Source: a virus. From it: DNA of 38,792 nucleotides. The stretch lies in the IMG/VR virus record IMGVR_UViG_3300028548_006240, positions 1 to 38,792 of that record. The stretch is one strand, 5' to 3'. The notes beneath the pieces were generated by a model. That model saw only the letters and a program-made list of their open reading frames with translations, made no database searches and was not told the DNA's origin. Below are positions 3,867 through 38,792 of this stretch, piece by piece; position 1 is the stretch's first letter, and each line of letters opens with the position of its first letter. The position numbers were made by a program, and so were the translations under genes.

Positions 3867-4826
3867 TTATAGAGTTTGAACAATGATACCAGCGGTATCT
3901 TTTAAGCTAGTCGCAGTTTGAACCCAGTTAGTACCCAATGCAATCGCTGCATCATCTGGTTGAGTTACTGCGGTGTTCCAAGTGTAACCTTTTAACGAAA
4001 GATTGAATGAAGCTTCTTCTTTTATTAGTTGCTTGGCATTATCAAACTCAGTTCGGGTTTCAGTATAAACGCGTGAATCTCCGTTATCTTCCATCATCAC
4101 AGCGCCAGAAACTAAACCAACTTGATAATAGTTTTCAGTGCCGCCATTGTCAAAATGCAAAGCAGGTGAATCTGTCATGATTAACATACGACCAAAACCA
4201 TCTTGGACAACTTGAATGGTTTCAAATTCAAACAAACGAGCGGCGTTAGTTAATGAGTCACCGTAAATATCGTGCAACGAGTTACTGTGCATAATCCAAG
4301 TTACTAAAGCAGCAGAGCGATCACCGAATAAACGAGCACCTTGGTTAAGTGATGCAAGCTTAGCAGTTGCGGCAGTACCATCATAAACAGCAGTGACACC
4401 AACGTTAACAACACCACCAACAATCGCAGCTAATGCAGAGTTAAGCATGTATTGAAACTTAGCCGCACCAACTTGTTCACCGAAGGCAATACCAGCTTCG
4501 CGGGGATCGCGTTTGGTCCAATCAAATGCAGAACCGGTGTATTCCATAGGCAAAGAACCCATACCAACCTTAACAGCCGCTTCTTTCAAAGTAGCTAAAG
4601 GGGTTGAAGAAAGGGCAGCTATAGAAGATGGATCGCGATTGCCATATAAGCCAGCCATTAAAGCGTAGGTAGATTTTTCTGCAAAGTCACCGGCGTTATC
4701 AGCAGCACTAATCAAAGTTAATGCGTTGCGTGTTGCGCCGTTCCACAATCCAGTTTGTTGATCAACAACTTCAGTAGCTGTTAATTGTGTCCAATCGTTA
4801 AAGATATCAAAGTTAGTTAAGCTCAT
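3867..4826 (-). CDS. Major capsid protein
   Basis: A 319-aa protein with AGGA upstream of the ATG at 4826, directly after a coiled-coil scaffold-like protein. The N-terminal part has LTNFDIFNDW and VVDQQTGLWN; a mid-protein stretch covers the MEYTGSAFDWTKRDPREAG region and the C-terminal part is beta-rich with SFNLSLKGYTWN. This suits HK97-fold capsid proteins of the kind without a fused protease. Position (portal, MuF, scaffold, then capsid) is the strongest argument. Confidence 0.8.
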   Translation of the reverse strand: MSLTNFDIFNDWTQLTATEVVDQQTGLWNGATRNALTLISAADNAGDFAEKSTYALMAGLYGNRDPSSIAALSSTPLATLKEAAVKVGMGSLPMEYTGSAFDWTKRDPREAGIAFGEQVGAAKFQYMLNSALAAIVGGVVNVGVTAVYDGTAATAKLASLNQGARLFGDRSAALVTWIMHSNSLHDIYGDSLTNAARLFEFETIQVVQDGFGRMLIMTDSPALHFDNGGTENYYQVGLVSGAVMMEDNGDSRVYTETRTEFDNAKQLIKEEASFNLSLKGYTWNTAVTQPDDAAIALGTNWVQTATSLKDTAGIIVQTL

Positions 4827-4843: not shown

Positions 4844-5461
4844 TTATTTTTGTTCAAGATAAGCGACTTTTTCAGCCATAGATTTATCTTTAAACGGTTT
4901 GTTTGCACCAATGCCAGCCGAGCCGCCACTACTTTCAGAGCCAGCCGCGCCGCCTCCTGAGCCTACAACGGCCTTAATGTAACGAGCGTTCGCTTCGTCC
5001 GAGACTAGCGATTGCTTAACTTCATCGACGGTTTTTGTTACGTCTCTAGACACTACAGCACCGTCTTTTACTTCAATCAAGCCGCTGAACTGCGACTGCA
5101 TATACATGCGACCGGCAGGGTCATCAGCTAAAGCCGTTGAAAAATCATTAACCGATGTTTCAATCAAACGTTTATTATTCGTTTCTTGAAATTCAAAGTT
5201 GATAGATTTTATCTTTTCATCACGCTCGGCAATTGCTGATTTATACTGCTCAACAGTGCCATCTTTTTCAGCAAGCGCAACCTTGTTGTTTTCTTCGGTG
5301 ATCGAGATTTGAAGCGTCATAGCCTCAACGCTATCTTTTGCCACCTTTTCACGATCAATTAATTCTGTGTTTTTGTTTTTTAATCCTAAAACATCAGCAT
5401 CATAATCTTTCTGAGCTTGTGCGAGCTGCTCACCCTCCAAGCCGTACTTGGTAAAGTCCAT
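4844..5461 (-). CDS. Capsid scaffolding protein
   Basis: The frame is open from 5521, but the ATG at 5461 (MDFTKYGLEG) has GGA-rich sequence upstream and fits scaffold N-termini better. The product is about 205 aa. Residues 20-100 are charged and heptad-like, predicted coiled coil. A Gly/Ser-rich linker (GSGGGAAGSESSGGS) precedes a C-terminal helix rich in Lys (KPFKDKSMAEKVAYLEQK), the capsid-binding signature of scaffolds. No protease motif is visible. Confidence 0.75.
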   Translation of the reverse strand: MDFTKYGLEGEQLAQAQKDYDADVLGLKNKNTELIDREKVAKDSVEAMTLQISITEENNKVALAEKDGTVEQYKSAIAERDEKIKSINFEFQETNNKRLIETSVNDFSTALADDPAGRMYMQSQFSGLIEVKDGAVVSRDVTKTVDEVKQSLVSDEANARYIKAVVGSGGGAAGSESSGGSAGIGANKPFKDKSMAEKVAYLEQK

Positions 5462-5539: not shown

Positions 5540-5568
5540 TTTATGTTAGTATTTGTGTTGATTATATA
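5540..5568 (+). promoter_or_regulatory. Putative promoter of plus-strand cassette
   Basis: TTTATG (5540-5545) and TATATA (5563-5568) are separated by 17 bp, 20 bp before the first ATG of the cassette. The -10 is good and the -35 is weak. It lies opposite in direction to every neighbouring gene. Confidence 0.5.
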
Positions 5569-5588
5569 AACGGACCAAAGGTTAAACA

Positions 5589-5786
5589 ATGATTAAAAGC
5601 TTAAAAATAGCTGCGAAATTACTCGCTATAAACGTGCTGCTAATAACGATACTAATATTTATCGGATGGGATACTTACGAATCAATCCGCCCTGAAACTT
5701 GGGGAGCTGCTGGGCGGTATTTCTATTTGACTACTAATATATTTACCATTGTTTTGTTGTTTGGTAGGTATAAGGCTAAATTATGA
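5589..5786 (+). CDS. Small membrane protein, cassette gene 1
   Basis: A 65-aa protein with AAAGG upstream of its ATG. Two hydrophobic segments, residues about 9-26 (AKLLAINVLLITILIFIG) and 43-58, predict two membrane helices with a short loop carrying WDTYESIRPETWG. It is the first gene of a three-gene plus-strand cassette inside the minus-strand head operon. Location and opposite strand suggest an accessory (moron) gene acting at the host membrane. Family not recognised. Confidence 0.65.
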   Translation: MIKSLKIAAKLLAINVLLITILIFIGWDTYESIRPETWGAAGRYFYLTTNIFTIVLLFGRYKAKL

Positions 5787-5983
5787 TTGAATTTCCATCG
5801 GCGGAATTGTGCGGGTACATATCACTTGTTAGCCTTGTTTTTTGGTCGATTAAGTACCCAAAGGAAATGAGCCTAGTGCTGATGCTTAAGGATGGGCTTT
5901 TAGTTCCAGCGTTAAATGTCATCGTCTATGCTCAAGTGCTTGTGGCTTTTAATATGATTATTTTAAAGGTGATTTATGAATAA
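5783..5983 (+). CDS. Small membrane protein, cassette gene 2
   Basis: A 66-aa protein whose ATG overlaps the previous TGA (ATGA), implying coupled translation. Two hydrophobic stretches (about residues 10-24 and 41-64) predict two membrane helices joined by a KYPKEMS-containing loop. It may form a complex with the preceding two-helix protein. No family was recognised. Confidence 0.6.
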   Translation: MIEFPSAELCGYISLVSLVFWSIKYPKEMSLVLMLKDGLLVPALNVIVYAQVLVAFNMIILKVIYE

Positions 5984-6539
5984 GCACACCAGGGCAACAC
6001 TAATCATCTTGCTTTTTTGTCTACCTGCCTGTGGTGGTAATACCAATAATGAAGGTGATGTACGGGAAAATGTTGACGACGTTTACGTTTATTACGATGA
6101 GTCATACAGGCAGTGTAATTGGAGCTACTTCAAGGAATTGACCGGCGCCACTATTTGGCCTTGGTGGTACGCTGTCGATAACGTTGATAATATTAAGGCT
6201 ATCTTCTTTGTCTATACTGACCGCATGACTGTTGGAGATATCGAGGCAGTGAGGCTATCAATAGCTGACGCTCCTATTTATATATCAACAGTTAACGAAC
6301 TCCCGGACACCCTTTACAGTCCGTCAGCTTACGGCGGGTCATACGGCCTAATTAAGGAGGTAAAGTCAGAGGCAAAAGATAACAGACTATGGGCGGTTGT
6401 TTTGGATAGGGAGGATGATTTTGAATCGTGGGGGGTGTTTGATACTGAGGCCAATACAAACACCTATGCCTTTATAGGTTGTGATGTGGTGATGGAAACC
6501 ATAGCGGAACTTATCTATGGTTCCGTTATGAGTTTTTAA
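5976..6539 (+). CDS. Lipoprotein, cassette gene 3 (superinfection-exclusion candidate)
   Basis: A 187-aa protein whose ATG overlaps the preceding stop by 8 nt. It begins with a basic n-region and hydrophobic core and then LPACGG, a lipobox with the lipidated Cys near residue 19. The mature part is acidic and aromatic-rich (TIWPWWYAV) with further cysteines. The stop overlaps the stop of the convergent MuF gene by 2 nt. Phage lipoproteins with own promoters often block receptors of incoming phages; that role is inferred from type and context, not from a recognised family. Confidence 0.7.
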   Translation: MNKHTRATLIILLFCLPACGGNTNNEGDVRENVDDVYVYYDESYRQCNWSYFKELTGATIWPWWYAVDNVDNIKAIFFVYTDRMTVGDIEAVRLSIADAPIYISTVNELPDTLYSPSAYGGSYGLIKEVKSEAKDNRLWAVVLDREDDFESWGVFDTEANTNTYAFIGCDVVMETIAELIYGSVMSF

Positions 6540-7606
6540 AGTCCTGCGGCCTCGAATACATTCGGGGCCTTTTTTCTCATCTCCGTCAAAGTCATCGCTT
6601 CAAAATTTCTATTTAATGATAACCTCCCGAATTCATCAGAGGTTAAACCGCCACTTCTTAATAGTTTAGCCCTAGTCGGTCCGATAGCATCAGCTTGAAA
6701 GGCTGCTGGTTGCTTCTTTAACCATGAAAAATAAGTTTCTTTAGTACTTACTTGCCCGTCAACACTCGCCCTTGTTGCGCCCTTATCTAAGAAATCAAAC
6801 TTTTCAGATAACACCGGTGTGGTAGTTGATCTGCAATTTGGGTGAATCGGTGGTAATGGCCCTTCCTCCATGTTAAACCGGCGACCATCTAAAGCTGTAC
6901 ATTGATCACTTGTTTTAGAGTCCAGCGTTGACACCCATTGATAGCCTTTGATCAAGTCGCTGTTTTGCTTCATCGTTAGTTGCCTGGCTTGAGTTGATGA
7001 GTGCTGAACGGCTGTTCTCACAATAGTTCGATTTGACCGGTTAACCTTAGCTAATTCACCGTCATTAAAGTTGCTGGCCTTAGTGCCTCTGATTCTTCGG
7101 GTAATCTCGCTATTGGTTTGGCCTTGGTAAAATCCCTGTTGAATGGTGTTGTTAACTAATTGGGTTTGCGTGGTTGACCAATCTTTTATAAACGGCTCCA
7201 AAAGCTGCTTACCTGAATAGTTTTGCATTTGCATAGGATTTACACGAATGGCAATTAAAGCTTGTTCAGCGGTCGGTATAGTGGACTGATAGCCGACTAC
7301 AACCTTTTCATAGCTTGCCGACTCAAATACTCCCTGTTGAAAGCCTATCTCACCCAAATCTAAAGCCAGTTGTTTATTATAATCATCATAGATAGCTTTT
7401 TGCAGGCTAGTAACATCGGCAAGCAATGCGTTTAATCGCTTCTTGCTTGTGATTGTTTCACCTTCATCCGATAGCCTTTTACGAATACCCTTCTCGATAC
7501 GCTTTAAAAACGGGGCGAACTTTTTATGCTCACCCTGTTTTAGTCGCTCAAGCAATACCTGGTTACGAACATCAATATTAATTAATGCAGGGGAAGTATC
7601 AGCCAT
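6536..7606 (-). CDS. MuF-like minor head protein
   Basis: A 356-aa protein whose ATG overlaps the portal stop (TAATG). Residues about 225-265 carry the Mu gpF signature: WVSTLDSKTSDQCTALDGR followed by PPIHPNCRSTTTPV, with the conserved Cys and the HPNCR motif. The N-terminal half is helical. MuF proteins bind the portal and enter the head during assembly. The 3' end also carries, on the other strand, the terminator of the lipoprotein cassette. Confidence 0.85.
   Translation of the reverse strand: MADTSPALINIDVRNQVLLERLKQGEHKKFAPFLKRIEKGIRKRLSDEGETITSKKRLNALLADVTSLQKAIYDDYNKQLALDLGEIGFQQGVFESASYEKVVVGYQSTIPTAEQALIAIRVNPMQMQNYSGKQLLEPFIKDWSTTQTQLVNNTIQQGFYQGQTNSEITRRIRGTKASNFNDGELAKVNRSNRTIVRTAVQHSSTQARQLTMKQNSDLIKGYQWVSTLDSKTSDQCTALDGRRFNMEEGPLPPIHPNCRSTTTPVLSEKFDFLDKGATRASVDGQVSTKETYFSWLKKQPAAFQADAIGPTRAKLLRSGGLTSDEFGRLSLNRNFEAMTLTEMRKKAPNVFEAAGL
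6548..6575 (+). terminator. Intrinsic terminator of plus-strand cassette, inside MuF coding sequence
   Basis: The stem is GGCC-t-CGAA / TTCG-g-GGCC (6548-6556 with 6561-6569) with loop TACA, followed by six T (6570-6575). It starts 9 bp after the lipoprotein stop and is at the same time antisense coding sequence for the C-terminus of the MuF protein. Confidence 0.8.
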
Positions 7607-9105
7607 TATTCGTTATCTTCAAAATCAACAGAACTACCCTGTTCTTCTTGCGTCATTTGGTTCATAGCATCCAAATCGACATCATCACCAATAGCTTTAC
7701 CCTTAACTAGAATAGTGTCTAATTCATCTTTAGAGAATGCGCCACCTTGCCAAACACTAACCCATTTAACAGCATCTTCGGCACTTAATGCCATATCAAA
7801 GAATTCATTGTTGAGTTTGAAAGTATAGTCTTGGTAATCTATCCCCATAAACAAACAAACCCACTCGATACACTGTGTATAAGCTGTGGATATATTGGTT
7901 GATATGACTTCCAAGTCACTAACATCTGATGCGTGTTTAATGCGTGCAGCCTCGGCAGTTTCAGCACCGCCGCCGGACGTTATCAACTGAGCGCCTAAAG
8001 CAATCATCTGTTCTTCGTAGTCTTTTTGTATACCCTTACTCATATTGTTTTCAGGCGGTGTAGCGTAATTAAATGTGCCGCCCGATTTTAATACGATTAA
8101 TGAGTCCTCACCTAATTCAACAGACCCGCCGTTTCTGGTTTTGTCTTGTGCTACTTTGGCATAGTTATCATCTGCTACCCACGGTTGACACGCTGATAAT
8201 TGAAAGCTACTTGACGCAAGGTTAGCTGATTCCTGATAATGACCAATATTGATATCACTAATTGGCTCAAGTGGTAAGTTGTCGATACTAGGCTGGTTAT
8301 TCATTGAACCTATAAAGGTAAAAGGGATCGCAGTCAGTGGCGTATCATTAGCGCCTAAAACTTGAATCTCTGCTGTTTGCTCTAAGCCTTCATCTTTCTT
8401 GGTTGACTCTGTAAATATTTGAATAGTCACACCATCAGAATTAAGGCGATAAACTTTAAACTGTTTTTTAATCTCGCGCTGAATTCGCGTTTCGTCTGCG
8501 AATACTTCGATCGCCTCTTGTAATACCAATAAGTCTAATATTTTAGCGTTGTTAATTATCGACTCATGCCAATCAATAATTGATTCTGCTTTGTATTCTT
8601 GGATAGTGGCTTTGAATCCGTTATTAACATCAGCTTGGGTTTTTTGTGCGCCTTCCTCGTTGCGTGGCATGTCAACTAGAAGACCATCACGACCAATCTG
8701 AATAACATCACTAGACACTGCCCTGCTTTGCTGGTTCATCGTTAAGCCTGAGCCGTTAACATTAGTAAAAATGTACTCTAGGGCTTTTGGCACTTCTGAC
8801 TCAGTGGGTGGTTTACGGTATAGCATACCCAATAAACCGGATAAGGTTTTGACAGTGGCATTATATAAACGAGCACCATTAATATAATCAATATTGCGCT
8901 GCTGATTATAGGTAGACGTATTAGTAGGATTGATTGGCCTTAAAAATGTCGCCCTAATTGCGCTTGTGGAAGTGTTGAGTTTATTGAGGTGTTGCAGGTC
9001 GTTTTCTTTTAATCGAGCCTCACCGTTATTAATGGCGCGAACTCTAGACCAGCGGCCCGCGTATTTATCATATTCAATGTTATTTTCAATATTTAACGCT
9101 GCCAT
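7606..9105 (-). CDS. Portal protein (DUF4055 family)
   Basis: A 499-aa protein between TerL and MuF, the standard portal position. The N-terminal segment NATVKTLSGLLGMLYRKPP and the RDGLLVDMP motif are typical of DUF4055 portals, as is an AEAARIKHASDVSDLEVIS helix (about residue 385). The C-terminus is acidic. Its ATG overlaps the TerL stop. The portal forms the ring at one capsid vertex through which DNA is packaged. Confidence 0.85.
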   Translation of the reverse strand: MAALNIENNIEYDKYAGRWSRVRAINNGEARLKENDLQHLNKLNTSTSAIRATFLRPINPTNTSTYNQQRNIDYINGARLYNATVKTLSGLLGMLYRKPPTESEVPKALEYIFTNVNGSGLTMNQQSRAVSSDVIQIGRDGLLVDMPRNEEGAQKTQADVNNGFKATIQEYKAESIIDWHESIINNAKILDLLVLQEAIEVFADETRIQREIKKQFKVYRLNSDGVTIQIFTESTKKDEGLEQTAEIQVLGANDTPLTAIPFTFIGSMNNQPSIDNLPLEPISDINIGHYQESANLASSSFQLSACQPWVADDNYAKVAQDKTRNGGSVELGEDSLIVLKSGGTFNYATPPENNMSKGIQKDYEEQMIALGAQLITSGGGAETAEAARIKHASDVSDLEVISTNISTAYTQCIEWVCLFMGIDYQDYTFKLNNEFFDMALSAEDAVKWVSVWQGGAFSKDELDTILVKGKAIGDDVDLDAMNQMTQEEQGSSVDFEDNE

Positions 9106-10421
9106 TTGTAACTCACTGTTGAAATTGGTTTAATAATTGGGTAGGTGTAACAGATATAATACCCACCTGCATCCGGCATATGATCGTTGTCATGTTGCTT
9201 GTCCGGATTTCCTTGTTTATCGTAAACTTGCTGCTCTAAGTCATCAGTATAGCGCGGGCAATGATTAGTGTTAACCTTATACCGCCTAACTCCCTTGCCA
9301 TTACATAACATAGCATTCATGGCATTGATTCTATCACGTACAAAAGGATTAACCGAATCATAGCGCGTTAAGTAGCCAGCATCGTCTAGTTTGCTAATGT
9401 CGGTCTCGCTAGCATTCACAGATTTACGGTTTTTGCCTGAGCTATCAGGATATACATAAATAGTTCTGCTAGGGTAAAGCCTGTCAATTTCAGCTATCAT
9501 TTCATCAGTATCAAGCAAGCCGAATATTTCATTAACTGCTATTGGGTCGCCGTTTCGTTCAATATGAACTATAGCCGACATTTTACCTACGTTAAAATCC
9601 ATTCCAATATGTAACGTTTCGTGATCATCTTCTGTTTCGTTGGTGTGATTCTTGCGCCTATCGAATAACCTGTAAACAGTTCCGCCCTTTAAGTTTACAA
9701 ATAAACCATCAACATAAGCATCAACTAAATTAGCCGGGTAAGTGGCGTAAAGCTTATCAATATAATCAGCGGGTAAATTTGCTGCGTTCTTCCTAGTTGA
9801 TGCGTGTACTATTCCGTAGTATTGCTGTAACGACTCATCTTCCTTTAACTGCTTAACAAATAAATCATAAACCCAGTTAAAACCCTCTGGCGTAGTCGTA
9901 AAGTCAACGGTGTTTTCTTCTAGTGCCTCAATAACTAAATCGGCGCTCATTTCTTCATCATATAGCCTTTGCTCATCAAAACCTTTTGATGACAACCTAG
10001 CGACAATCTTTTTCCATGCTTGGTCGGCCTTCTCTTTCTTCATGCAGTCAATTTCATCAATCAAGGCATGGTTAATATCAAAGCCAACTATTCTTTGTGG
10101 GTGCTCCATTGATCTACATTTTACTATTGCGTGTAAATCACCGAAGTAATATAAATACGCCTCGTTGTTCGAAGTTTTTATATCGACAGTCATTCCGAGC
10201 GTTTCAGCAACGTCCGTAATAGTATTGTAAAATATATCTCTTATCTGCGGGTATGTTGGCGCAAAGTAGCCAAGCCTTATGCCTGGGTATTCCAACGCTA
10301 AGGCGCACAACCTAACACAACCTAAATATGTTTTTCCTGAGCGATACCCACCAACAAAAGCCCTAAAAGGTTTGTCCATGTGGTAAAACTCATTCTGCGG
10401 GAAATTAAGATCTAGAGGCAT
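9093..10421 (-). CDS. terL: Terminase large subunit
   Basis: A 442-aa protein. Walker A is GGYRSGKT (about residue 24-31), Walker B with catalytic acids is HALIDEIDC (about residue 115), and a coupling TTTPEGFNW follows. The nuclease half starts at IGMDFNVGKMSAIVHI, with VYPDSSGKNRK as the second acidic motif. Length is normal. The start lies inside the 3' end of terS (17-bp overlap), giving tight coupling. Confidence 0.92.
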   Translation of the reverse strand: MPLDLNFPQNEFYHMDKPFRAFVGGYRSGKTYLGCVRLCALALEYPGIRLGYFAPTYPQIRDIFYNTITDVAETLGMTVDIKTSNNEAYLYYFGDLHAIVKCRSMEHPQRIVGFDINHALIDEIDCMKKEKADQAWKKIVARLSSKGFDEQRLYDEEMSADLVIEALEENTVDFTTTPEGFNWVYDLFVKQLKEDESLQQYYGIVHASTRKNAANLPADYIDKLYATYPANLVDAYVDGLFVNLKGGTVYRLFDRRKNHTNETEDDHETLHIGMDFNVGKMSAIVHIERNGDPIAVNEIFGLLDTDEMIAEIDRLYPSRTIYVYPDSSGKNRKSVNASETDISKLDDAGYLTRYDSVNPFVRDRINAMNAMLCNGKGVRRYKVNTNHCPRYTDDLEQQVYDKQGNPDKQHDNDHMPDAGGYYICYTYPIIKPISTVSYKWQR

Positions 10422-12634: not shown

Positions 12635-12985
12635 CTATTTTTTTATTGCCCTAACACCGAATGATGACAGTATAGCAACCGCTACCCAGTATTGGTAATA
12701 AGTTGGCATTTTGCTTAGAGCATCAAAGCCGGCTAATATTGTTGGCACGAATGGCGGTATAAAAGCACCAACCAAAGGCACGGATAATACAATACTAAAC
12801 CAATCATCACGCCAACCGCCGCCCTTTTCTGCCTGGATAGACTCCCATTCTGCTAGCTTATCCTCAGCATTAATGAGCCGGTCTATATTTTTCTTTTTAA
12901 CTTCTGTTTTGTTCGTGTTTATCTTTGTAATCGTTTTAGATATTGGCGAGACTAAGCCGCCGATAAAGTCCATGATGAAGTTCAT
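12635..12985 (-). CDS. Holin-like membrane protein
   Basis: A 116-aa protein with an ATGA overlap to the upstream gene. A charged helical region (KINTNKTEVKKKNIDRL) and the WESIQAEKGGGWRDDWF segment precede two hydrophobic helices (about residues 66-86 and 97-111, the latter AVAILSSFGVRAIKK). This arrangement resembles holins associated with gene transfer agents and 3-helix holins. It would permeabilise the inner membrane so that endolysin reaches peptidoglycan. Confidence 0.65.
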   Translation of the reverse strand: MNFIMDFIGGLVSPISKTITKINTNKTEVKKKNIDRLINAEDKLAEWESIQAEKGGGWRDDWFSIVLSVPLVGAFIPPFVPTILAGFDALSKMPTYYQYWVAVAILSSFGVRAIKK

Positions 12986-13335
12986 TTTACAAACTTACCC
13001 CATATTAATGTTGATAAAAACCAGCTCCTAGCCCTAAACCATCTGCCCTCAGCTTTTAGTATGTCATATAAAACTTTTGACGCTCTCAAGTTGCTACATA
13101 CAGAGCCATCGGCAAACTTTTTATTCCTTTTTAGTACGTCATGAAACAACCAGCCGAATGAATTGATATCCTTGGCTCCGGTTGCTCCATCATAAGGCTT
13201 GTCAGTGGTTTTTATGCTTACATCTTTGTTGTACCGGTCACTGTGATAAGTTTTACCTTTAATAACCTTATATTCAATTCTGCCTTTATTGCCAGTCCTT
13301 AACGGTGTTACATATTCGTATATATTGACTCTCAT
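12982..13335 (-). CDS. DUF1353-like protein
   Basis: A 117-aa protein overlapping both neighbours by ATGA. DINSFGWLFHDVL followed by FADGSVCSNLRASKVLYDIL matches the conserved H-D core of DUF1353, a small phage family often coded in lysis or tail modules. A late hydrophobic WFLSTLIWG might touch the membrane. The biochemical role is unknown; a peptidase-like function has been suggested for the family but I cannot confirm it here. Confidence 0.55.
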   Translation of the reverse strand: MRVNIYEYVTPLRTGNKGRIEYKVIKGKTYHSDRYNKDVSIKTTDKPYDGATGAKDINSFGWLFHDVLKRNKKFADGSVCSNLRASKVLYDILKAEGRWFRARSWFLSTLIWGKFVK

Positions 13336-13667
13336 AACAGCATCCCAGCAAGTGCTTTAGCGATATTGACAACACTTCCGACAATCTCGCTATTGGGGTT
13401 TAGTTTTAATACATCTAGCCATAAGATAGCGCCCGTGACCATTACAGCAGCGAGATTAATATAACGCCTGTGCTTGCTAACTTTTACCCATACACTGTGG
13501 TTTTCCGTTTGCCCTTCTAAAATATCATTACTAACGCTTAAGCTTGCCTCGCCTGAGTCGCATAACGCACCCAGCAAAGTTATAACTGTGTCGATCTTGT
13601 CGTTTTGATCTTCTTTAGCTTTAGCCAGTTTAGGGCCGCCAAGTTTTTTTAGTTCGTCCGTATTCAT
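13332..13667 (-). CDS. Hypothetical membrane protein (lysis region)
   Basis: A 111-aa protein with AGGGG upstream of its ATG. The soluble N-terminal half is helical; residues about 70-85 (NLAAVMVTGAILWLDV) and 95-111 (IVGSVVNIAKALAGMLL) are hydrophobic. It is translationally coupled to the DUF1353-like gene. It could be a second holin or spanin-like component; no family was recognised. Confidence 0.55.
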   Translation of the reverse strand: MNTDELKKLGGPKLAKAKEDQNDKIDTVITLLGALCDSGEASLSVSNDILEGQTENHSVWVKVSKHRRYINLAAVMVTGAILWLDVLKLNPNSEIVGSVVNIAKALAGMLL

Positions 13668-15164: not shown

Positions 15165-15581
15165 TTAATAAGTCCACATAACCAATCTCTGACCATCACG
15201 ATAACCCAGGTGTACAAATGTTTTAGCAACACCAATAGCATTAAATCCGCACTCTAAACCAACAGCCACTAATTCAGCTCTTTCTGCTCCACCCCTAACC
15301 CGAACATCAATGCCAACCCCTTTTTGATGGTCAGCAGGTGTTGTTCTGTGCGTTTCGTTTGGGTGATTGGGGCATCGGCCGCCTGAAGTTACCGTTAACG
15401 GTCTATTAGCAAGCACCCGCACTCTTTCAATGCGCCTTAACGTCGATAGCTTTACACTTCTTTTATCGCAGTTAGTATGCTCGCAAGTGCATAATAATTT
15501 AGGGTCTGATACCGGGTTAAAATGTTCTGTTCTTACTGTCATTCTTAGCCTCTCTATGTTTGTGATTATTGTTTTAAGCAT
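15165..15581 (-). CDS. Endolysin, M15 peptidase type
   Basis: A 138-aa protein (an alternative ATG at 15542 also has a good RBS). LTVTSGGRCPNHN-like start of the core is followed by HQKGVGIDVR (zinc His and Asp) and FVHLGYR (third ligand), the order of Peptidase_M15_3 enzymes that cut peptide bridges in peptidoglycan. A preceding CTCEHTNC cluster is frequent in this group. No signal peptide, so export would depend on the holin. Confidence 0.8.
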   Translation of the reverse strand: MLKTIITNIERLRMTVRTEHFNPVSDPKLLCTCEHTNCDKRSVKLSTLRRIERVRVLANRPLTVTSGGRCPNHPNETHRTTPADHQKGVGIDVRVRGGAERAELVAVGLECGFNAIGVAKTFVHLGYRDGQRLVMWTY

Positions 15582-37664: not shown

Positions 37665-38792
37665 TTACAGTGCTGGTAAGCGCTGGATTATAATTGAGCT
37701 TTGAGCTTTGGAGCCGATAGCAGTACCTTCCAGGGATTGAGTTATGCTAGTTGCGCCGCCTATCTCCGGTGTTGCCGCAGTTAGAAACGTTTTAGGGTAG
37801 CTAAAGCTCATAGCACCATCAAGGCCGTTTAAAACAATATCAACTCTCGTCTCAACTTCATCAACAAAACGCTGAACCAAGTCAGTATTAGCCATAAAGC
37901 CTGACATTGACACTGTGTTAGTGGCTCGGCCACGTTCAATAAATGCTACGGCTTTGTTGCCTAGCTCAAATTGTGCGCTTGCTTCGTTATCGTTGGTTAG
38001 TGTTGAGCTTGTAATAAATGCCTCGACAGCACCATCAACACAAACTTTTCCGTCAACACCGGCAAATGCTCGGGTAGTTGTTTCAGCGTTAAAAGTTGAT
38101 CCAGCAGGTAAGCCGGTAAAGTCTTGCGAGCGACCCAGTAACGGAAATGACCCCGTAACTTGCGCATTAACTGCCACTTCAAAACTAAAGCCGGTGAACT
38201 CTACGCCCTTTGTAACCACGTATTGATCAACAGTGCCACACTTGCCACGGAACCAAGTTAAAACGCTCATGGTTGTACATAGTGAGCCTGTACCGATTGA
38301 ATCACCGGTATCAATATCAGTCGTTACAACTTCTGGCGTTAACGTGTGAGTAATTCCGCCGCCAGTTACTACCGAAGCAGTTACAGCGGTAACGATAAAC
38401 GGTAACGCGTTATCACCAGTCAAGCTATTGAATCGTATTAAATCACCAACTAAAACGCCATCAGAAACATAATCGCCAGCGGTACGAGTAAATGTTTTTG
38501 CCACTTCATCAACGGTAACTTCTATAGTTGATAATGACAATCCAGCGACCCAAGCCGACGACATGGCATTAGAAATTAGATCATCCTGTGAAGTCTGCGA
38601 TAATTCGACAGAGTATTCGCCCTGTGCTTGTTCGTTACCAACTCGAACGCCGGTGATTTCTCGCGAATCATCCAGCTCATCAGAGATTAAAGCATCTTTA
38701 ATAATTGAAGGTACGCCGCCAGTATTGCGGATCTTTGTCCAAGCCGGTGATGTTGGTGTTATGCCTGGGGTTGATTCCATCACAAAATAATG
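37665..38792 (-). CDS. Tail tube protein, C-terminal part (cut by right edge)
   Basis: The reading frame is open across the right edge, so the true start (MGTPFSGSN, by comparison with 339) lies outside. A full-length protein of about 387 aa is expected. It is beta-rich, with GKCGTVDQYVVTKGVEFTG and PLLGRSQDFTGLPAG matching Phage_tail_tube_2-type proteins; the C-terminus AQSSIIIQRLPAL is conserved in the group. It precedes the G chaperone as usual for the major tail protein. Confidence 0.82.
   Translation of the reverse strand, partial: HYFVMESTPGITPTSPAWTKIRNTGGVPSIIKDALISDELDDSREITGVRVGNEQAQGEYSVELSQTSQDDLISNAMSSAWVAGLSLSTIEVTVDEVAKTFTRTAGDYVSDGVLVGDLIRFNSLTGDNALPFIVTAVTASVVTGGGITHTLTPEVVTTDIDTGDSIGTGSLCTTMSVLTWFRGKCGTVDQYVVTKGVEFTGFSFEVAVNAQVTGSFPLLGRSQDFTGLPAGSTFNAETTTRAFAGVDGKVCVDGAVEAFITSSTLTNDNEASAQFELGNKAVAFIERGRATNTVSMSGFMANTDLVQRFVDEVETRVDIVLNGLDGAMSFSYPKTFLTAATPEIGGATSITQSLEGTAIGSKAQSSIIIQRLPAL
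38487..38792. repeat. Right copy of imperfect direct terminal overlap
   Basis: Matches 1-306 without gaps at about 90% identity; see the left copy. Confidence 0.9.

Follow-up and report, generated by a model that had tools for sequence, protein, structure and literature searches.

In phage SPP1, the segment that separates gene 7 (MuF) from gene 11 (scaffold) carries three morons (genes 8-10) and is bracketed by transcriptional signals, according to the part of the SPP1 account cited here (PMC6316719), so that a cargo site at this junction has in essence already been described. A separate group of known systems comprises the exclusion lipoproteins, such as T5 Llp, Cor, Ltp and the mEpimmI Lpp. 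T5 Llp is a phage lipoprotein that blocks its receptor, and many phages express exclusion proteins early, as stated in the section of the source drawn upon (PMC9586334), while the mEpimmI lipoproteins are encoded in the structural gene cluster and exclude phages, in the portion of the report cited (PMC11893012). Here we describe a locus of a marine phage that resembles both. It shares with SPP1 the junction and the kind of head module (portal, MuF, scaffold and Gp13-like capsid), a likeness of position; however, its cassette opposes the head genes and encodes predicted membrane and exported proteins, whereas the cited part of the SPP1 account assigns every ORF to one chain and places oriR in the segment as well (PMC6316719). 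With the exclusion lipoproteins it shares a phage-encoded, exported lipoprotein-like protein, and with those of mEpimmI a location within the structural genes, but this protein is longer than the Llp/Cor type, has an atypical lipobox, matches no family and is co-encoded with two putative membrane proteins. Pseudoalteromonas phage BS5 (gp05-gp07) and a further relative, L022, also carry small genes at this junction, oriented against the head genes and located upstream of a promoter for scaffold, but their proteins are different and no terminator was found in their MuF genes. In the literature on opposite-strand morons, exclusion lipoproteins, cargo hotspots and hidden terminators, we found no paper on the cassette itself.

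The window, by which we mean the entire stretch of DNA analysed, is a virus record of 38,792 bases. Its bases 2-306 and 38487-38791 repeat each other with 90% identity over 305 bases, and the record thus probably covers almost the entire genome, with ends that overlap imperfectly; it may be a circular map compiled from a population. All head genes lie on the minus strand in a packed run, interrupted only by 1,074 bp between MuF and scaffold that are filled by three plus-strand ORFs (Table 1). These ORFs overlap one another by 4 and 8 bases, in agreement with a preliminary description that had placed three overlapping plus-strand genes inside the minus-strand head genes, and an AAGG- or GGTGA-like sequence lies ahead of every start codon. 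MuF converges on the cassette, and the two stop codons overlap at 6536-6539. The G+C content of the cassette equals that of the genome (0.409 vs 0.406) and hence gives no sign of recent foreign origin. Morons usually differ from their neighbours in base composition, in the part of the literature cited (PMC4378225), but an atypical G+C content is usual and not required, and the classification of the cassette as a moron stands.

Table 1. Positions of the features discussed (window coordinates unless a related locus, denoted by L and a number, is named).
Feature	Position	Strand	Basis or remarks
Gp13-like capsid	3867-4826	minus	
Scaffold protein	4844-5461	minus	PHROG 206; start 5461 set by comparison with L002
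Two sigma70-like promoters into scaffold	5549-5522 and 5521-5493	minus	CTAACA-16-TATAAT with TG; TTGACC-17-TACAAT
m1, predicted two-helix membrane protein, 65 aa	5589-5786	plus	ORF, hydropathy, relatives in L101 and L037, dN/dS
m2, predicted two-helix membrane protein, 66 aa	5783-5983	plus	ORF, hydropathy; no relative found
Lipoprotein-like exported protein, 187 aa	5976-6539	plus	ORF, N-terminal signal ending LPAC/GG; no relative found
First hairpin, T-rich tail	6493-6538	plus	In 3' end of lipoprotein-like gene
Intrinsic terminator	6548-6575	plus	9-bp stem 6548-6569 then T6; antisense in last MuF codons
MuF head morphogenesis protein	6536-7606	minus	Pfam PF04233, PHROG 241
Portal	7606-9105	minus	
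Terminase	9093-10421	minus	
Predicted membrane proteins	12635-12985 and 13332-13667		
Endolysin	15165-15581	minus	PHROG 894
HTH-like ORF, 66 aa	19104-19304	plus	Possible small regulator (by eye)
m1 relative, 73 aa	L101:2774-2995		Reached via L037
Block of small predicted membrane proteins	L037:9110-10818	minus	Includes m1 relative
Motif family of about 53 aa	L022:1271-1432, L055:3438-3674, L010:2399-2560, L008:409-570, L095:3333-3500	all minus	Motif like GYTLxEFCxxIGYSxRWYRTH
MuF match split by intein-like insert	L013:2363-4348		270-aa opposite-strand ORF inside
MuF with intein-like insert	L096:3167-5290		Vibrio phage 1.266.O; annotated hint domain protein

The first two genes had been described as encoding two-helix membrane proteins, and for each of them one hydrophobic segment is clear (Kyte-Doolittle 2.6 in m1 and 2.2 in m2), while the second is weaker (1.2 and 1.4, respectively). 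The third had been called a lipoprotein. Its N-terminal signal with LPAC supports this in part; with Pro at -2 the lipobox fits the relaxed pattern only and not the strict one, so lipid attachment is likely but not certain. A hydrophobic stretch at the C-terminus reaches a hydropathy of 1.3 at most. Codon usage clearly supports the lipoprotein-like gene (0.21 bits/codon, with negative values in the other frames) and is weak for m1 (0.09 bits/codon) and m2 (0.05). A single-sequence AlphaFold2 model of the lipoprotein-like protein was unusable (mean pLDDT 33.9).

No Pfam model matched any of the three proteins, and PADLOC returned 0 families at E values up to 1, in accord with the earlier statement that the small membrane proteins belong to no recognised family. 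PHROGs gave a single weak match for the three, between the lipoprotein-like protein and phrog_13434 (E 0.12), and the PDB one match to that protein (E 0.7). For m2 and the lipoprotein-like protein we found no relative by tblastn of phage records or by pattern scans of IMG/VR, nor in 32 related records, in searches run without a positive control; plasmids held no relative of the lipoprotein-like protein. Its matches in the genome contigs L097 and L098 were rejected as chance, reflecting the signal peptide of an unrelated protein that appeared PstS-like by eye in L097, the contig examined.

For m1 there are likely two relatives. While tblastn of phage records gave none, m1 resembles an 87-aa reverse-strand ORF of L037 with a local score of 67 against a block-shuffle mean of 28.4 (Z 7.3, 0/2000), and a degenerate DNA pattern of the m1 motif returned the L037 contig again and nothing else. 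Through L037 we reached the second relative, in phage record L101 (IMGVR_UViG_3300033388_001888), which is 56% identical over 62 residues; when the m1 alignment was used to search the 32 related records in full, only this L101 protein matched. The comparison of m1 with its L101 relative (dN 0.32, dS 1.01) indicates purifying selection on the predicted protein. Both have the same hairpin with the motif WD...W.A..R...LT, but the L101 gene is co-directional with its neighbours and is accompanied neither by m2 nor by the same lipoprotein. It sits in the replication operon, between a PAPS-reductase-like gene and NinB, and these two genes and the DnaC-like gene of L101 have 83-85% DNA identity to those of the window. 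No MuF match was found in L101; with their similar replication genes and this difference in the head module, the two appear to be sister phages that reflect module exchange. Further on in its replication module, L101 encodes a 174-aa protein with a strict lipobox that has no detectable relation to the lipoprotein-like protein of the window, so that the occurrence of m1 together with a lipoprotein is no more than an analogy. In L037, the m1 relative lies downstream of capsid, in an opposite-strand block that encodes several small predicted membrane proteins.

To place the cassette among related head modules, we gathered relatives by their capsid protein and from annotated phages. The survey of the junction covered 64 of 96 loci (63 fetched plus the window, which replaced its copy L001), namely those with both MuF and scaffold, and these were grouped at 95% MuF identity into 45 clusters. 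In L002, the closest relative (MuF 74% and capsid protein 81% identical), only 70 bp separate MuF from scaffold and the cassette is absent, which bears out the earlier view of the cassette as an added moron, for which absence from exactly this position in close relatives had been proposed as a check. In 13 of the 45 clusters MuF and scaffold are separated by at least 400 bp, and the content of the interval differs from one to another. Cargo opposing the head genes, with ORFs read by eye, occurs in seven of these 13 (the window, L016, L018, L022, L037, L038 and L046); L016 and L018 are the Pseudoalteromonas phages BS5 and HS2, both with reverse ORFs at the junction. The remaining large-gap clusters have forward genes or none, and L012 carries an HNH endonuclease there (by eye). 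Among the reverse cargo are a YopX protein in L018 and a Phd/YefM-type antitoxin in L037. The boundaries of such an insertion can be read from L022 and L025, whose alignment stops at L022 1109/L025 6221 and restarts at L022 1832/L025 6221, leaving a clean insert of 722 nt situated after the MuF stop and ahead of the scaffold promoter; it contains three reverse ORFs, one of which encodes a two-helix 54-aa protein. In the window, a 12-nt near-repeat on either side of the cassette (5576-5587 and 6637-6648) was considered as an insertion scar and rejected, being at chance level for its length by a rough estimate.

The preliminary description had placed a promoter before the cassette. In our search for sigma70-like sites no plus-strand promoter upstream of m1 passes; the best of the sites, an extended -10 at about 5547-5552, scores 8.8, and 74% of shuffles reach that value. 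The strong promoters in this interval run the opposite way, into scaffold, and the first of them (CTAACA-16-TATAAT with TG) has a counterpart in relatives. Upstream of scaffold, a sigma70-like promoter is present in 22 of the 27 clusters whose MuF-scaffold gap is 45 bp or longer, as compared with 1 of the 18 with a shorter gap, at a score threshold of 10 that was chosen after we had seen the scores of the window promoters; a shuffle test that is independent of this threshold (p <=0.05) gives 20/27 versus 1/18. Among the 13 large-gap clusters the promoter is present in 10. Such a promoter directly upstream of scaffold is common in the lineage (L002, L009, L017, L022, L094 and others). Hence, from the cassette-free junction of L002, the variable content of the junction and the scaffold promoter, we conclude that the cassette is one occupant of a cargo site that the lineage shares, between what are predicted to be two head transcription units, with a conserved putative scaffold promoter downstream of the insertion; the preliminary description had overlooked the site and the promoter, and also the relatives of m1. 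The simple reading is that cargo may enter between two transcription units and harm neither.

The terminator had been correctly recognised: the 3' end of MuF contains, antisense to its last codons, a hairpin and then six T. Its fold energy is -15.2 kcal/mol, and jointly with the first hairpin it reaches -37.6 kcal/mol (z -5.8), as good as none of 200 shuffles. When the last 26 MuF codons were recoded synonymously according to phage codon usage, 0/4000 recodings reached the terminator score, and of the 44 genes of the phage no other has an antisense terminator of such class and strength. The cassette had also been called complete and autonomous, which is not supported: it has its own terminator, but no plus-strand sigma70-like site exceeds shuffles. 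An Rfam match to GcvB at 6440-6576 scored 26.4, below the gathering score of 42, and was taken as a chance match driven by the hairpins.

At the corresponding place L002 has only a weaker, shifted terminator match, and among the 63 fetched MuF ends L035/L036 and L054 likewise have weak matches and the remainder none. The MuF C-terminus carries the motif x-P-x-x-F-x-z-A-G, in which position z is Ala in the window and, in 13 other distinct tails, Lys or Arg in 11, Gln in one, Met in one and Ala in none; an Ala before the Pro, as found in the window, is shared by 1 of the 13. The two Ala codons form the GGCC ends of the terminator stem. From this small sample we infer that the MuF tail may have been selected to hold the terminator. 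It would thus be a clear case of a structural-gene end apparently shaped to stop transcription on the opposite strand. Among the six other reverse-cargo loci, candidate terminators in MuF were found only in L037, as a long A/T-rich hairpin (16 pairs, 5 of them G-C) with a score of 31 against 28 for the window on our own scale, and in L046, where the candidate is weak (16 on the same scale); L016, L018, L022 and L038 have none. A MuF-internal terminator, as predicted here, is not general for reverse cargo at the MuF-scaffold site.

To account for these features, we propose that the cassette is a moron-type envelope cargo cassette that probably serves superinfection exclusion, an explanation that, taken as a whole, we regard as evenly balanced between right and wrong. 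Its parts differ in strength. The anatomy of the cassette and its place in a cargo site are, judging from the sequence comparisons, very probable, and we consider it well supported that this is a moron-type cassette at a site shared with other cargo, with a notable terminator concealed in MuF. The cassette, read against the head genes, would have been inserted between a unit for packaging, portal and MuF and a unit for scaffold and capsid that has its own promoter, at a junction where insertion would break no gene and leave capsid expression intact. The tandem hairpins, the second in the last MuF codons, would stop its transcript, and the terminator would keep that transcript from running antisense through MuF, portal and terminase. 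Expression would be early and by the host polymerase, as suggested by the position of the m1 relative in the replication operon of the sister phage L101 and by HS2, for which the cited part of the report gives structural genes as late and 67% of genes as early, and in which the cargo genes are not seen individually (PMC7082346). The m1 and m2 proteins would reside in the inner membrane, whereas the third protein, the lipoprotein-like one, would be exported and probably be lipid-anchored in the envelope. Most likely, the cassette would then alter the envelope of the infected cell such that a second phage could not bind or inject. Superinfection exclusion as the function is a guess, and one that we hold tentatively; if it is true, a set of two membrane proteins and a lipoprotein would be at work, unlike the single-protein systems described in the sources cited.

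The cassette could equally be envelope cargo with another job, in early host takeover or in countering a membrane-linked host defence, without excluding phages, and this possibility appears to us about as likely as superinfection exclusion, itself a tentative reading. The m1 relative among the replication genes of L101 speaks for it, as does the reverse cargo at the site that includes proteins other than exclusion proteins (the Phd/YefM-type antitoxin and YopX), and for early SPP1 ORFs that have predicted membrane segments the cited portion of the account assumes an early action in the host membrane (PMC6316719); however, PADLOC matched no known defence model. More speculatively, and in our opinion improbably, the cassette may belong to a new family of early-acting envelope modules (an m1-type WD...W.A..R hairpin, m2 and an exported lipoprotein-like protein) that is swapped between the replication operon and the head-operon cargo site of marine siphophages, with the code of MuF, including its amino acids, altered after insertion to hold the terminator.

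Other readings of the same genes fare worse. Two small predicted two-helix proteins beside an exported lipoprotein-like protein would also suit an accessory lysis cassette, with m1 and m2 as holin and antiholin and the third protein as an outer-membrane spanin, and the ORF scan showed no other standout spanin-like lipoprotein. A lysis role is nevertheless doubtful in the extreme, because the endolysin is encoded 9 kb away on the opposite strand; two other predicted membrane proteins lie closer to it, the C-terminal hydrophobic stretch of the lipoprotein-like protein is slight, and the m1 relative is found in a replication operon. Typical outer-membrane spanins are also smaller than this protein. 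Expression from a prophage, as in lysogenic conversion by a temperate phage, would suit the original use of the word moron and the presence of an own terminator, and the small HTH-like ORF, which lies on the strand opposite to its neighbours, could be a regulator. It is, however, most unlikely, since the window genes scanned with PHROGs include no integrase; nor do they include a recognised repressor, which also counts against expression apart from the lytic programme, in the lysogenic sense, as had been suggested. No plus-strand promoter is better than shuffles, and the related HS2-like genus is described without indicators of integration in the part of its description cited (PMC5498523). Least credible of all is that the ORFs are a degenerate insert or chance ORFs, whose products no longer matter: m2 and the lipoprotein-like protein are without relatives and the codon signal of m1 and m2 is weak, but the purifying selection on m1, the ribosome-site-like sequences, the start-stop overlaps and the terminator kept in the MuF codons all argue against it. 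What we see, in the case of the envelope cargo cassette, are small phage proteins of unknown role that are tied to a defined cargo site common to many related phages, beside a conserved promoter for the capsid genes, and because many related phages use this site, its cargo can be gathered and tested as a set.

L003 has a capsid protein 75% identical to that of the window, while its portal, MuF and scaffold are less than 30% identical, which indicates that its mosaic boundary separates scaffold from capsid. An intein-like insert interrupts the MuF match of L013, and the MuF of Vibrio phage 1.266.O likewise has an intein-like insert. Finally, members of a protein family of about 53 aa are encoded repeatedly by opposite-strand cargo, at several places in head operons (Table 1), and in L022 and L029 they adjoin a small membrane protein.
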